A stretch of DNA of 32,918 nt from Actinomycetota bacterium (GTDB taxonomy: Bacteria > Actinomycetota > Acidimicrobiia > Acidimicrobiales > Ilumatobacteraceae). Both the position numbers and the translations under genes were made by a program. Shown here piece after piece: positions 19,133 through 25,651 of this stretch (positions are counted from its first letter, which is position 1; every line of letters starts with the position of its first letter). Location: positions 1 to 32,918 of the forward strand of contig RFST01000004.1 of the NCBI GenBank assembly GCA_009923855.1, read 5' to 3'. The notes under the pieces were generated by a model. The model ran no database searches, had not been told where the DNA came from, and worked only from the letters and a program-made list of their open reading frames with translations.

Positions 19133-19178
19133 TGTGATGCATGTGTGAGAGCCCGAGCGCTGTGGCATCGTGTGGGTT

Positions 19179-20273
19179 ATGAGCAGTGCTGTCGACGCCG
19201 GGGTGAGCCGGCGGCATCTCGATGCCATTCGTAACGCCTGGTCTGAGTTCGATGATGGTCGACGCATTGCCGACATCGTTGAACTGAGTGCGATGGTCTC
19301 GACGAACCGCGTGTACCGCCTGGTTCTCGACGATGGTGCGGCGATCATTGCGAAGTCATCGAACTACGGCTCGTTCTTCTTGTTCGCGGAGGATCATGAC
19401 CGGTTGCACCGGTGTACGCGGTTGCTTTCGGGTGGGCCGTATGAGGACTTCATGGCCGGCATGTTGACTGCGGACGACCGTCCGTTCATTTTCTATGACG
19501 GTGAGATGTGGGTGGTGTTCTACACCGAGGTGGAGGTGCGCGACCGACTGCCGGCCATATTGAGCGAGCCGCAGGTCGACAACCTGGGTGCGGAGATTGC
19601 GCGCTTTCACCGGGCGACACATTCGGTGGCGCGCCTGCTGCCGCCCACGTCGAAAACGGTCACCTCGGACGCGGTGAACCTGTTCGAGATGACGGCTAGT
19701 CGTCGTGCCGGAGAAGAGCTCGGCCTGGACCCGTCACGTCTTGACCTGGTGCGGCGGCATACGCACCGGTTCTTGATGGCGGTGCATGAATCGGGATACG
19801 ACTACTGGCCGAAGATGCCAGTGCTGATCGACTGGAACCTGGGGAATTTCTCCGTGGAGCCCGACCCCAGCGTGGCCGACGGCACCGGTTTCCGACTGTT
19901 TTCTCGTTGGGATTACGACTGGTTCCGCATCGAGACCCGACTTCTTGATTTCTATTTCTTGTCGCGGGTGTCGTCGCGCACCGGAGACCGCACCACATTC
20001 TCCTATGGCGTGCACACCTTGTTCGAACCCCGATTCCGCCGGTTCCTGCGGGCGTATCACGCCGTGTTCCCCCTCGCCGAGCGTGAGGTGCTGTTCTTAA
20101 AGGAGGCGTACCGGTTCTTCTTGTTGAACTATGTGGTGCGCGAAGGCCGCCACTTCTTCCGTGAGGACATCTGGCGGCACCTCCTGCGTGACGTCGTCGA
20201 TCGTCACCTTCCCGATCTTGATCGGCACGACTTCTCGAGTCTGCTCGTCGAGATCGAATCCGACGAGGAATAG
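19179..20273 (+). CDS. divergent APH/choline-kinase-fold protein, unknown substrate
   Basis: VYRLVLDDGAAIIAKSS (possible ATP-Lys), LIDWNLGNFSVE (like HGDxxxxN with His->Leu), RWDYDWFRIETRLLDFYFLSR (like the DWExA/metal-binding Asp region). Start ATG 19179 (MSSAVDAG). Confidence 0.6.
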   Translation: MSSAVDAGVSRRHLDAIRNAWSEFDDGRRIADIVELSAMVSTNRVYRLVLDDGAAIIAKSSNYGSFFLFAEDHDRLHRCTRLLSGGPYEDFMAGMLTADDRPFIFYDGEMWVVFYTEVEVRDRLPAILSEPQVDNLGAEIARFHRATHSVARLLPPTSKTVTSDAVNLFEMTASRRAGEELGLDPSRLDLVRRHTHRFLMAVHESGYDYWPKMPVLIDWNLGNFSVEPDPSVADGTGFRLFSRWDYDWFRIETRLLDFYFLSRVSSRTGDRTTFSYGVHTLFEPRFRRFLRAYHAVFPLAEREVLFLKEAYRFFLLNYVVREGRHFFREDIWRHLLRDVVDRHLPDLDRHDFSSLLVEIESDEE

Positions 20274-20287
20274 GGCACCCCTGCGAG

Positions 20288-20914
20288 TCACAGCCGCGAT
20301 TCGGCACCCGCAGCCAGTCGGCGGATATTGCCGGCATGACGCGCGAGAACGAGGGCGCAGATACCAACGGTGGCTGGCACTTCCCAGAGGCGACGGCCCA
20401 TCGTCCACACACCGACCGGCAACGCGGTGACCACGATGACCGAGGCCACGGCGGCGGTGCGGGTCAACCTCGACACCACGATCCAGGTGATGATGAGCAC
20501 GAGGAACACCACGGGCGAGAGCACTGCAAATGCGCCACCACCAGTGGCGACACCTTTGCCACCGCGGAACCGCCGAGTAACAGGGGCGACGTGGCCGAGA
20601 ACAGCTGCGGCCGCACCGGCGTAGGCCAAGGCCCGCCCGTCGATAGACGGGTTATCGCCCGCACCGATGAGCAGGCTGGCCGCCGCCGGAAGGGCACCCT
20701 TGGCTGCATCGAGAACAAATACCCAGATGCCGCGCCGCCAGCCGAGCACCCGGGCCACATTCGATGCCCCCGGATTGCCCGAACCGGCGGTGGTGATATC
20801 AACACCGTTGGCGCGTGCGACCAACACCGCACTGGGAAATGTCCCGACGATGTAGGCCGCGATGACGACCACAATCCAGATGGCGACCACCGCGGTGCTC
20901 GACAGGTCGCTCAT
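20288..20914 (-). CDS. plsY: glycerol-3-phosphate acyltransferase PlsY
   Basis: AYIVGTFPSAVLVAR, GSGNPGASNVARVLG, LDAAKGALP, HVAPVTRRFRGGKGVATGGG; polytopic. Start ATG 20914. Confidence 0.94.
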   Translation of the reverse strand: MSDLSSTAVVAIWIVVVIAAYIVGTFPSAVLVARANGVDITTAGSGNPGASNVARVLGWRRGIWVFVLDAAKGALPAAASLLIGAGDNPSIDGRALAYAGAAAAVLGHVAPVTRRFRGGKGVATGGGAFAVLSPVVFLVLIITWIVVSRLTRTAAVASVIVVTALPVGVWTMGRRLWEVPATVGICALVLARHAGNIRRLAAGAESRL

Positions 20915-20931: not shown

Positions 20932-22062
20932 TCAGCGCCGTCCGAGCGTGACCGGCACGGCCGCGGCAGCAGCGTGGGCGCGGGCGCGTGAATGATCCTG
21001 ATCGGGTCGTGGGGCGGTGGTCGCCGCCGCCAGTGCGGCTGCGCCGTGACCCGACACACACTCGGGGTCAGGACCGTCGAGGGGAAGCCCGGTGAAGAAC
21101 TTGGCGGCCATGCAGCCGCCCTGACAGGCGTCGTAGGCCCCGCACGATGCGCAGGCCCCTGCGGATCCTGGCTCGCGGAGTTCGGCGAAGAGCTCGCTGG
21201 AATTCCAGACCGCAGCGAAACCGCCGGGGTCGCGCACGTTCCCGGCCCTGAATTCATCGTGGATCACGAATGGGCAGGCGTAGACATCGCCGACGGGGTC
21301 GATCAGGCACACCACGCGCCCGGCTCCGCACAGGTTCAAGCCCGGTAGTGGGTCGCCGAGAGCGTTGAGATGGAAGAACGAGTCACCGGTGAGGACCCGG
21401 TCGCCTCGTTCGAGCAGCCAGTGGTAGAGGTCGCGCTGCTGGGCGTCGGTGGGATGCAGTTGATGCCATGTGTCGGCGCCTCGACCGGCGGGGCGCAGGC
21501 GGGTGATGCGCAACTGCGCGCCGTAGCTGTCGGCAATGGTGAGCAAGTCATCGAGCTGGGTGACGTTCTCTCGGGTGACAACAACGGAGATCTTGAACTC
21601 GCCGAAGTCGGCAGCGGCGAGGGCATCCATGGCCCGTCGGGCGGTATCCCACGAACCCTGACCGCGGACTAGGTCGTTCGTGGCGGCGTCGGCACCGTCG
21701 ATGCTGATCTGCACGTCGAGGTAGTCCATGGCGGCCAGCCGGCGGGCCGCGTCGGTGTCGATGTAGGTGCCGTTGGTCGAGAACTTCACGCCGACACCGG
21801 AGGTGGTCGCGTGGTCGATGATGGTGAAGAAGTCGCGTCGCAGCATGGGTTCGCCACCGCCGATGTTCACGTAGAACACCTGCATTCGGCGCAGCTCATC
21901 GATGACGGCGATCGCCTCGTCGGTGGTCAGTTCACGGGGGTCGCGTCGGCCCGATGATGACAGGCAGTGCACACAGTCGAGATTGCAGGCGTAGGTCAGT
22001 TCCCAGGTGAGGCAGATGGGAGCGTCGAGGCCTCGCTTCATCTGGTCGGCGAGTGTGGTCAT
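20932..22062 (-). CDS. mftC: mycofactocin radical SAM maturase MftC (radical SAM/SPASM)
   Basis: GLDAPICLTWELTYACNLDCVHCLSSSGRRDPRELT (CX3CX2C), QVFYVNIGGGEPMLRRDFF, SPASM cysteines CGAGRVVCLIDPVGDVYACPF...CASCGAYDACQGGCMAAKFFTGLPLDGPDPECV. Confidence 0.95.
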   Translation of the reverse strand: MTTLADQMKRGLDAPICLTWELTYACNLDCVHCLSSSGRRDPRELTTDEAIAVIDELRRMQVFYVNIGGGEPMLRRDFFTIIDHATTSGVGVKFSTNGTYIDTDAARRLAAMDYLDVQISIDGADAATNDLVRGQGSWDTARRAMDALAAADFGEFKISVVVTRENVTQLDDLLTIADSYGAQLRITRLRPAGRGADTWHQLHPTDAQQRDLYHWLLERGDRVLTGDSFFHLNALGDPLPGLNLCGAGRVVCLIDPVGDVYACPFVIHDEFRAGNVRDPGGFAAVWNSSELFAELREPGSAGACASCGAYDACQGGCMAAKFFTGLPLDGPDPECVSGHGAAALAAATTAPRPDQDHSRARAHAAAAAVPVTLGRR

Positions 22063-22352
22063 GAGCTGTCCTTCTCGTCGTCGCGGGTGATCACAATGCC
22101 GGCCTCGGCCAGATTTGCGATCGCGCGTTGGAATGGCCCACGAAGTGTCTCGGCGATGTCGAGAGCGTCCATGGTCGTGTCGAGATCGGTGTGCTCATGA
22201 AGGGCATGCACGACATCGACCAATTGCGGGTGGCGCAAGAACACCAGCCGACGAGTGTCGTAGTGGTACGCGAGAGCTCCGAAGGGTTCGGGGCGCAGAG
22301 CGACGTTGGGATGTAACCGCAGTGCACCCATGGTGGCGGTGTGGACCGTCAT
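22059..22352 (-). CDS. mftB: mycofactocin peptide chaperone MftB (PqqD-like RRE)
   Basis: LRLHPNVALRPEPFGALAYHYDTRRLVFLRHPQLVDVV; located between mftA and mftC, 4-nt overlap with mftC. Confidence 0.92.
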   Translation of the reverse strand: MTVHTATMGALRLHPNVALRPEPFGALAYHYDTRRLVFLRHPQLVDVVHALHEHTDLDTTMDALDIAETLRGPFQRAIANLAEAGIVITRDDEKDSS

Positions 22353-22365
22353 GGTCCCGGCGGGC

Positions 22366-22500
22366 TCAGTACACCCCGCACATGCCGTCGATGGAGATCT
22401 CCTCGATGAGTTCGAGTTCGTCCTCGACGATCTGTTCGGCGCCGGTGTCGGGGGCGTCGTTCACGCTGACGTCGGTCGTGGAGTTCTCGTGCGGTGCCAT
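22366..22500 (-). CDS. mftA: mycofactocin precursor peptide MftA (44 aa)
   Basis: MAPHENSTTDVSVNDAPDTGAEQIVEDELELIEEISIDGMCGVY*; diagnostic C-terminus IDGMCGVY. Only visible in the track as the tail of a spurious 139-aa ORF (22366..22785). -10-like TACGCT (complement of 22507-22512) is 6 nt before the ATG. Confidence 0.95.
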   Translation of the reverse strand: MAPHENSTTDVSVNDAPDTGAEQIVEDELELIEEISIDGMCGVY

Positions 22501-22599
22501 GGGCCGAGCGTAGCGAACCAGCGGTCGCCGTGGCGCCGTCGGGGTCGAGGGGCGCTGCGGGGAGGCGCGCCGGTGTGTCTGTGGGGTACTGTGCGAGCA

Positions 22600-22612
22600 G
22601 CACCACTGGTGC
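22600..22612. promoter_or_regulatory. 13-bp palindrome GCACCA-C-TGGTGC in the mftA/ADH divergent region
   Basis: Perfect 6+1+6 inverted repeat just downstream of a -10-like TACTGT (22587-22592). Confidence 0.5.
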
Positions 22613-22625
22613 GCGGCGGGGGTCG

Positions 22626-22644
22626 CCGTGGGTGTCACCCACGG
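22626..22644. promoter_or_regulatory. 19-bp perfect palindrome CCGTGGGTG-T-CACCCACGG, candidate operator upstream of the alcohol dehydrogenase
   Basis: 9+1+9 inverted repeat ending 32 bp before ATG 22677. Confidence 0.65.
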
Positions 22645-22676
22645 GTCGTCGCAGACACGATCGACGGGGGTCGACC

Positions 22677-23804
22677 ATGAGGACACGTGCAGCCATCCTC
22701 CACGAGCGGAACGCGCCGTGGAGTGTCGAAGAGATCGAACTCGACCCGCCACGCGCTGGCGAAGTGCTGGTGAAGATGGCGGCATCGGGTATGTGCCACT
22801 CCGATGAACACCTGGTGACCGGTGACCTGGAGGGGGCCACCCCGCCGCTGCCGATTATCGGTGGCCATGAGGGAGCCGGAGTGGTGCTCGAGGTGGGCGA
22901 GGGCGTACGCGGCCTGGCCCCGGGTGACCATGTGGTGTTCGGTTTCATTCCGGCCTGTGGTCGTTGTGACTCGTGTGTTCAGGGCCATTCGAACCTCTGC
23001 GATGTGGGCGGCGAGTCGTTCCCGGCTGGCACCCAGATCACCGATGGCACGGCGCGGCATCACCTGCTCGACGGCACCGACCTCACGCTCATGTGCCTGC
23101 TCGGCACATTCGCCGAGCACACCGTGGTGAACGAGTCGTCGTGCGTGAAGATCGAGCCGGATTGGCCGCTCGACAAGGCCTGTCTGCTGGGCTGTGGCGT
23201 GGTCACCGGCTGGGGTTCGGCGGTGTATGCCGCCGATGTGAAGCCCGGCGAGTACGTGGCGGTTGTTGGCGCAGGCGGCATCGGCGCGAACGCCATCCAA
23301 GGCGCGAAGATGGCTGGTGCCCGCGCGGTGGTGGCCATCGATCCGGTGGAGTTCAAGCGTGAGAAGGCCATGGCGTTCGGCGCGACGCACACGTACGCCT
23401 CCATTGCCGAGGCCCTCGAGAACATGGGCGAGAGCACATGGGGTCGCGGTTTCGACAAGGTGATCATGACCGCGGGTGTGGGCAACGGCGATGTGCTCGG
23501 CGAGGCGTTCTGGCTGGGCGCGAAGAAGTCGCGCACCGTGGTCACGAACATCCACCCTGTCGCAGAACAGTCGATTGCAATTCCTGGGTCGTTCCTGACC
23601 CTGTTCGAGAAGGAACTGGTGGGGTCGCTGTTCGGGTCGGGCAACATCCGCCGTGACATTCCGCGCCTAATGGAGTTGTACACGCAGGGTCAGTTGAACC
23701 TCGATGATCTGGTGACACGGACCTACTCGCTCGACCAGATCAATGAGGGCTACGACGCGATGCGCAACGGTGAGAACATCCGTGGCGTGATCGTGTTCGA
23801 CTGA
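22677..23804 (+). CDS. NDMA-dependent (mycofactocin-type, Rxyl_3153-like) zinc alcohol dehydrogenase / nicotinoprotein
   Basis: MRTRAAILHERNAPWSVEEIELDPPRAGEVLVKMAASGMCHSDEH, GHEGAGVVLEVG, ACGRCDSCVQGHSNLC structural Zn site, GAGGIGANAIQGAKMAGA; adjacency to mftABC. Confidence 0.93.
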   Translation: MRTRAAILHERNAPWSVEEIELDPPRAGEVLVKMAASGMCHSDEHLVTGDLEGATPPLPIIGGHEGAGVVLEVGEGVRGLAPGDHVVFGFIPACGRCDSCVQGHSNLCDVGGESFPAGTQITDGTARHHLLDGTDLTLMCLLGTFAEHTVVNESSCVKIEPDWPLDKACLLGCGVVTGWGSAVYAADVKPGEYVAVVGAGGIGANAIQGAKMAGARAVVAIDPVEFKREKAMAFGATHTYASIAEALENMGESTWGRGFDKVIMTAGVGNGDVLGEAFWLGAKKSRTVVTNIHPVAEQSIAIPGSFLTLFEKELVGSLFGSGNIRRDIPRLMELYTQGQLNLDDLVTRTYSLDQINEGYDAMRNGENIRGVIVFD

Positions 23805-23813
23805 GTCGTCGCG

Positions 23814-24725
23814 ATGCCGCCACCGCCGGTCGCTGTTGTCGACCGTGCTCGTGAGATCGAATTGGTGCGTGCCGCCCTCGCAGCAGGGCGGCACGTGCTG
23901 CTCGAGGGGCCGCCGGGCACCGGCAAGTCGACGCTGTTGCGCTCGATCGCTGCGGGTGATGGCGCCGCATTCGAGTTCGTGGAGGGCACAGCTGAGCTGA
24001 CCCCGGCGCGCCTGGTGGGCCATTTCGACCCGGCGCGGGTCATGGCCGAGGGCTACGACCCGGATGTGTTCGTGGATGGGCCGTTGCTGCGCGCGGTGCG
24101 TGACGGTGCGCTGCTCTACATCGAAGAGATCAACCGGGTACCGGAGGAAACCCTCAACGTGCTGGTCACTGTGATGAGCGAGCGGGAGGTGACGGTGCCC
24201 CGACTTGGTCGGGTGCCCGCCGCGGCCGGTTTTCGTCTGGTGGCGGCGATGAATCCCTTCGACGCGATCGGCACCGCACGCATTTCCGGTGCGGTGTACG
24301 ACCGGGTGTGTCGGGTGGCGATGGGATACCAGGACGCACCCGCAGAGGAATCGATCGTGCTGGCCCAGGTGGCCATGGCGGGAGATGACATTGTGAGGCG
24401 CGCGGTGGGTGTGGTGCGCGATACCCGCGAACACGGTGATCTGGTCACCGGGTCGTCGGTGCGCGGTGCGATTGACATGTGCGCTATCGCGGTCGAATTG
24501 GCCGGCCTGCGCGACACCGGTGTGTCGGATCCGGCGGTCACCCTCGATGCAGCACTGGTGGCGCTGTCGGGCCGCGTACGGCGTCGCGATGGGGTGTCGC
24601 GTAGCACCGAGGACATCATCTCGGAGCTGTGGCAGCGGTGGTTTGTCGATCGGGCACCGTCCGATGACGGTGGGGATCCGGCGGCGGGAAAAGCCCCGAG
24701 CCCGGCGGGGAGTCCGACGGGCTGA
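23814..24725 (+). CDS. MoxR-type AAA+ ATPase
   Basis: Walker A LLEGPPGTGKSTLLRSIA, Walker B ALLYIEEINRVPEETLNVLVTVMSEREVTVP, sensor FRLVAAMNPFD; starts 9 bp after the ADH stop. Confidence 0.92.
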   Translation: MPPPPVAVVDRAREIELVRAALAAGRHVLLEGPPGTGKSTLLRSIAAGDGAAFEFVEGTAELTPARLVGHFDPARVMAEGYDPDVFVDGPLLRAVRDGALLYIEEINRVPEETLNVLVTVMSEREVTVPRLGRVPAAAGFRLVAAMNPFDAIGTARISGAVYDRVCRVAMGYQDAPAEESIVLAQVAMAGDDIVRRAVGVVRDTREHGDLVTGSSVRGAIDMCAIAVELAGLRDTGVSDPAVTLDAALVALSGRVRRRDGVSRSTEDIISELWQRWFVDRAPSDDGGDPAAGKAPSPAGSPTG

Positions 24726-24781: not shown

Positions 24782-25651
24782 GTGTCGCGACGTGAACTCG
24801 CGGGGAACGACATGTTCGAGCGGGTGTCGCCCGAGGTGGGCGAGTTCGATGAGGGGGCCTTCGACGAGGCCATGGCCGCCGATCCGGATGCGGCGCTGGG
24901 CTTGTTGGCCACGTTGACTGCGGCTGTCGATGAACGGTTGCGAGCACGAGCGCGGGAGGTGGCCCGCACGGTGATCATCGCAGCGGCGCGTAGCGGGTCG
25001 CCTCGTCGCGGCCGGCCGGGACGATTGGTGTCGGCCCCACTGGCTCCGGGCGGTGACCTCGATGTGGATGCTGCCGTGGAGGCCCGTGTGGCCGCGGGCG
25101 GTGGGCGTCCCGCGGTGGAGGATCTCCGGGTGATCGAGTTGGAACGCCCCGATCTGTCGCTGTGCCTACTGATCGATCGGTCGGGGTCGATGCGTGGTGA
25201 TGCTCTGGCGACTGCGGCGATGGCGGCCGCCGCCGTGGCGCTGCGCGCCACGGGCGAGCACGCTGTCGTGGCCTTCGCCAACGATGTGGAGGTGCTTCGT
25301 CCAATGGCTCCCGCGGCGCCTACTCCCGATGGTGGTGCAGCACTCGTTGATGCCGTCCTTGGTCTCCGCGGACACGGAACGACCGATGTCGCGGCGGCGC
25401 TGTTGGCGTGTGCTCAGCAACTGGGCCGCTCGCGCGCGGGTCGTCGGGTGGGCATCGTGTTGTCAGATTGTCGATCGACCGAACCGGGCGATGTGGTGGC
25501 CGCGGCCGCATCGGTGGACGAACTGGTGATCATCGCGCCACGCGATGACGATGTGGCCGCGAGGGAATTGGCGGCGGCGTCCGGTGCGCGGGTGGCGACG
25601 TGGGCGGGGCCGTCGGAGATCCCAGCTGTGCTGCGCGACGTCGTGGGGTGA
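24782..25651 (+). CDS. VWA-domain (MIDAS) protein, partner of the MoxR ATPase
   Basis: LSLCLLIDRSGSMRGDALATAAM (DxSxS MIDAS), HGTTDVAAALLACAQQL, VGIVLSDCRST; GTG 24782. The frame is open back to 24668 without ATG/GTG. Confidence 0.87.
   Translation: MSRRELAGNDMFERVSPEVGEFDEGAFDEAMAADPDAALGLLATLTAAVDERLRARAREVARTVIIAAARSGSPRRGRPGRLVSAPLAPGGDLDVDAAVEARVAAGGGRPAVEDLRVIELERPDLSLCLLIDRSGSMRGDALATAAMAAAAVALRATGEHAVVAFANDVEVLRPMAPAAPTPDGGAALVDAVLGLRGHGTTDVAAALLACAQQLGRSRAGRRVGIVLSDCRSTEPGDVVAAAASVDELVIIAPRDDDVAARELAAASGARVATWAGPSEIPAVLRDVVG

Follow-up and report, generated by a model that had tools for sequence, protein, structure and literature searches.

The mycofactocin locus and its precursor gene

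The window (the whole stretch analysed here, 32,918 nucleotides of an Ilumatobacteraceae assembly) carries mftA, the gene for the small peptide from which bacteria make the redox cofactor mycofactocin, followed on the minus strand by mftB and then mftC. An alcohol dehydrogenase (ADH) gene diverges from mftA across 176 bp, and genes for a MoxR-type ATPase and a vWA protein come after it. The features are:

20932-22062, minus strand: mftC, radical SAM/SPASM maturase, CxxxCxxC present (TIGR03962 617.9 bits, cut-off 265)
22059-22352, minus strand: mftB, peptide-binding chaperone, RRE-type (TIGR03967 93.9 bits, cut-off 33)
22366-22500, minus strand: mftA, mycofactocin precursor, 44 aa (TIGR03969 35.8 bits, PF23709 43.2 bits)
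22507-22512, minus strand: putative -10 element TACGCT, 6 nt ahead of the mftA ATG (TANNNT motif conserved in relatives)
22677-23804, plus strand: NDMA-dependent (nicotinoprotein) alcohol dehydrogenase (TIGR03989 533.4 bits, cut-off 440)
23814-24725, plus strand: MoxR-type AAA+ ATPase, its subfamily being associated with mycofactocin genomes (AAA_5 92.6 bits)
24782-25651, plus strand: vWA/CoxE-like protein with a DRSGS MIDAS motif (PF13519 37.0 bits, PF05762 33.9 bits)

The original prediction placed a 44-aa mftA on the minus strand, followed by an MftB-like RRE protein and MftC, and its position and translation proved exact. The reading runs from an ATG at 22500 to a TGA at 22368-22366 and gives MAPHENSTTDVSVNDAPDTGAEQIVEDELELIEEISIDGMCGVY. 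The profile search proposed as a check placed the peptide above the curated cut-offs of both precursor models (25 for TIGR03969, with an E value of 5.3e-9, and 27 for PF23709), and mftB and mftC also scored above theirs. The peptide is the sole TIGR03969 match in the genome, a 2.14-Mb assembly of 347 contigs that is 86% complete, and there were no matches in 14 control genomes. Among relatives, 70 of 120 have a TIGR03969 match, including 12 of the 15 genomes of the same genus. The expected conserved end, IDGMCGVY with its terminal Val-Tyr, is intact in the window and in relatives, and ISIDGMCGVY is identical in 18 loci from five genera. One locus (L020 of genome G052, positions 1410-1520) repeats the GMCGVY-stop end directly in a second short copy about 90 bp downstream of the gene; this copy may have been inserted or may be an assembly artefact.

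The longest open reading frame in the mftA frame is 139 aa (22366-22785), and the original prediction was right to call its extension spurious. Its additional N-terminal part lies antisense to the beginning of the divergent dehydrogenase gene (ATG at 22677), and the 139-aa product is an artefact of choosing the longest frame. It is exceedingly improbable that the 44-aa frame arose by chance or is the relic of a decayed gene, or that the 139-aa frame encodes the true product. The longer frame is indeed open, but its upstream extension is unconserved and overlaps the dehydrogenase start, whereas the 44-aa peptide scores above the MftA family cut-offs, keeps its C-terminus in 18 loci and has a conserved TANNNT right ahead of its start. 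The warning that automated annotation may miss mftA was fair, although not new: mftA was already reported to be often missed by gene callers or annotated with a spuriously long N-terminus (Haft 2011, PMC3023750), and NCBIfam and Pfam now contain models able to catch it.

The start of mftA was compared across 46 distinct mftA loci, taking in each the ATG furthest 3' from which a peptide of about 34 aa or longer can still be translated. A TANNNT ends 6-8 nt ahead of this ATG in 40 of them. Shuffled upstream sequence gave a mean of 1.1 loci and a maximum of 6 over 2000 trials, a comparison that overstates significance because the mftA loci are related and not independent. The identical test on 18 loci found the motif at none of the mftB, mftC or ADH starts (0/18 each). 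The conserved TANNNT-N6-8-ATG arrangement gives independent support to the 44-aa start. In the window, TACGCT would put the first transcribed base at the A of the mftA ATG or very close to it, and the predicted product would be a leaderless mRNA. We rejected the motif as a trait of all mftA genes. The loci L112, L114 and L115, which belong to other groups of actinobacteria, are without it and have a purine-rich, Shine-Dalgarno-like sequence in its place, so the arrangement seems typical of Acidimicrobiia. Such a leaderless-type promoter helps explain why mftA starts can be miscalled in Acidimicrobiia.

Gene layout, remaining pathway genes and the divergent dehydrogenase

The mftC gene overlaps mftB by ATGA. 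The synteny vWA-MoxR-ADH / mftA-mftB-mftC-plsY is kept in 18 loci of the family wherever contigs extend; the contig of one (L071) ends within the ADH gene. The glycerol-3-phosphate acyltransferase gene plsY (20288-20881) is directly 3' of mftC in the window; 17 of the 18 loci have it close to mftC, and in the other (L064) the contig ends at mftC. Beside plsY, a 367-aa protein (19170-20273) has 74-79% identity to its counterparts in most genomes of the genus and no match in Pfam or NCBIfam.

Other pathway genes are encoded elsewhere in the genome. MftE scores 224.1 bits (cut-off 172) and MftD 627.2 bits (cut-off 470.85). The mftE gene adjoins an mftF-like gene on contig C90, and mftD is on contig C8. 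The mftF-like gene beside mftE encodes the best MftF candidate, with TIGR03965 as its top family at 228.3 bits, below the cut-off of 280. These genes are on short contigs of an 86%-complete metagenome-assembled genome and could in principle be binning errors. Within the 5-16 kb around mftA in the same genus, no mftD, mftE or mftF homologues were found, whereas in genera g6 and g25 mftE and mftF follow plsY. In this genus, then, mftABC are probably truly separated from mftD/E/F, and not only through fragmentation of the assembly.

The TetR regulator MftR was not recognised in the 86% complete genome, where the best score was 45.4 bits against a cut-off of 224.9. MftR is usual but not universal in mycofactocin systems, and the MftG dehydrogenase is present in about 75% of them. 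A 392-aa GMC oxidoreductase on contig C13 of the genome (G000; L080, 1129-2304) has the MftG models as its best family matches, all far below cut-off (TIGR03970 58.8 bits, cut-off 387.45). By these matches it is a possible divergent mycofactocin dehydrogenase and a remote MftG candidate.

The ADH frame as listed starts at 22494, and homology begins only at 22680, next to the ATG at 22677. It is the one TIGR03989 ADH above cut-off in this genome, of which about 14% is missing, and it is predicted to use mycofactocin. We do not claim a second dehydrogenase class: a genome-wide search for TIGR03971 short-chain dehydrogenases (SDR) gave 40 weak matches, none above cut-off. Haft 2011 (PMC3023750) names an iron-dependent dehydrogenase class too, and additional partner enzymes may exist. 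The compact layout, with one precursor, one dehydrogenase above cut-off and a 176-bp divergent intergenic region in a genome of roughly 2 Mb, suggests a simple mycofactocin economy.

A MoxR-vWA pair associated with mycofactocin genomes

By profile, the nearest solved proteins to the MoxR ATPase are midasin, NorQ and CbbQ. Models for the MadB ATPase (NF047784), GvpN and CobS were considered and rejected, all scoring far below cut-off. Loci whose MoxR is at least 53% identical number 51. In 49 of them a vWA relative lies next to the MoxR, and 39 have a related ADH. Four of the 12 loci without the ADH (L096, L103, L117 and L118) have mftE and/or mftF nearby, and another (L086) starts near a contig end. 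At 29 loci with remoter MoxR proteins, neither a vWA relative nor the ADH was found in any. The MoxR-vWA-mftE-mftF genes of L096 (CAMCTY010000005.1) are close to those of Acidimicrobiia; the record is titled as a Bifidobacterium breve metagenome-assembled genome, probably a mislabel.

Across 397 Actinobacteriota genomes, the MoxR subfamily is present in 32 at 338 bits or more, and the next match scores 275 bits. All 32 encode mftC, which is found in 73 of the 397, and all 32 encode a TIGR03989 ADH, found in 67. Fisher p values are 3e-27 for mftC and 9e-29 for TIGR03989, uncorrected for phylogeny and with the 32 genomes spread over 11 families. Coordinates place the start of MoxR within about 150 bp 3' of a TIGR03989 ADH, on the same strand, in 27 of the 32. 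There are 41 mftC-positive genomes without this MoxR, chiefly in families f81 and f22, and most have TIGR03989 dehydrogenases; the pair is therefore no general requirement of mycofactocin genomes.

We used a tree of the ADHs to ask whether the MoxR-adjacent members form one clade, and rejected this. MoxR adjacency changes 12 times on the tree, 11 of these changes being forced by well-supported branches, and shuffled labels gave a mean of about 21.5. The linkage was therefore gained or kept in several ADH lineages.

On its genomic association and by analogy with known pairs, MoxR-vWA is a probable lineage-restricted maturation pair. A little below an even chance, in our view, is the reading in which the pair is an unrecognised, lineage-restricted mycofactocin accessory; it would then mature or reactivate TIGR03989 ADHs, one possible way being to load or remodel their metal site or tightly bound NAD. 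It is rather unlikely that the two genes are merely inherited neighbours unrelated to mycofactocin or the dehydrogenase. Shared descent can account for synteny within one family, the Fisher test carries no correction for phylogeny, and the 41 genomes with mftC and usually the dehydrogenase do without MoxR. Against this, the subfamily occurs in 11 families always together with mftC and TIGR03989, it is directly 3' of the ADH in 27 of 32 genomes, the adjacent ADHs fall in several clades with at least 11 forced label changes, and some ADH-less loci have mftE and/or mftF nearby. Those few loci, with the pair beside mftE/mftF and no ADH near, would also fit a pair that acts on the making of mycofactocin or on some other protein linked to it. 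We consider a target other than the dehydrogenase improbable, the ADH being by far the commonest neighbour (39 of 51 loci, 27 of 32 genomes).

In a literature search that covered few subscription journals, no paper joined MoxR with NDMA-dependent enzymes, a weak sign of novelty. In the same scope, MoxR and mycofactocin appeared together only in an unrelated prophage study. MoxR and vWA are both absent from Haft 2011 and from the MftG paper. If functional, the association would identify a maturation step so far missing from the picture of nicotinoprotein dehydrogenases.

Proposed mechanism and comparison with known systems

We are highly confident that the locus is a genuine, standard mycofactocin precursor and maturation system; on the best reading, it makes mycofactocin in the ordinary way for a nicotinoprotein alcohol dehydrogenase. 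The identification of mftA is correct and ordinary, another case of a known cofactor family. The original prediction made no mention of the divergent dehydrogenase, the MoxR-vWA pair or the placement of mftD/E/F elsewhere in the genome; what is added here and deserves to be followed up is the leaderless-type start of mftA and the association with MoxR-vWA.

What was observed directly comprises the identities of the genes, their conservation and synteny, the motif ahead of mftA and the distribution across genomes; the biochemistry in the source organism, transcription from the motif and the role of MoxR-vWA are all inferred. The 44-aa MftA would be translated, probably, from a leaderless mRNA and bound by MftB, and MftC would decarboxylate and crosslink its C-terminal Val-Tyr. 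MftB binding, and decarboxylation and cyclisation of Val-Tyr by MftC, are established in other systems (e.g. PMC11778925). MftE, encoded elsewhere in the genome as is MftD, would release the product, which MftD would oxidise to premycofactocin and the MftF-like enzyme may glycosylate. Mycofactocin would accept the electrons of the NADH that the divergent TIGR03989 ADH binds tightly. The MoxR-vWA pair probably helps to mature or reactivate this ADH, or another mycofactocin-linked protein.

The system resembles mftA-F of Mycobacterium (Haft 2011, PMC3023750) in the IDGMCGVY end of MftA, in MftB, MftC, MftD and MftE that score above curated cut-offs, and in the presence of a nicotinoprotein dehydrogenase. 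It differs in that, in this genus, mftD and mftE-mftF stand apart from mftABC, MftF is below cut-off, MftR is unrecognised, MftG has only a remote candidate, and the mftA start is of the leaderless type. The ADH is like other TIGR03989 members in scoring above the family cut-off and in being near the mft cluster, as reported for Thermomicrobium and Haloterrigena (Haft 2011, PMC3023750). It differs in that only one is recognised per genome here, it is divergent from mftA, and MoxR-vWA comes after it.

The NorQ/NorD, CbbQ/CbbO and CoxD/CoxE-type pairs share with MoxR-vWA an AAA+ ATPase gene followed by that of a vWA protein with a MIDAS motif, beside a presumed client enzyme. However, the solved NorQ and CbbQ have only remote similarity to this MoxR (at most 62.3 bits), and the literature searched contained no such pair with a nicotinoprotein ADH as its client, as is presumed here. 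The role of NorQD is to help insert metal into nitric oxide reductase (PMC13036017, PMC9976466), and by analogy MoxR-vWA may mature or remodel the dehydrogenase.
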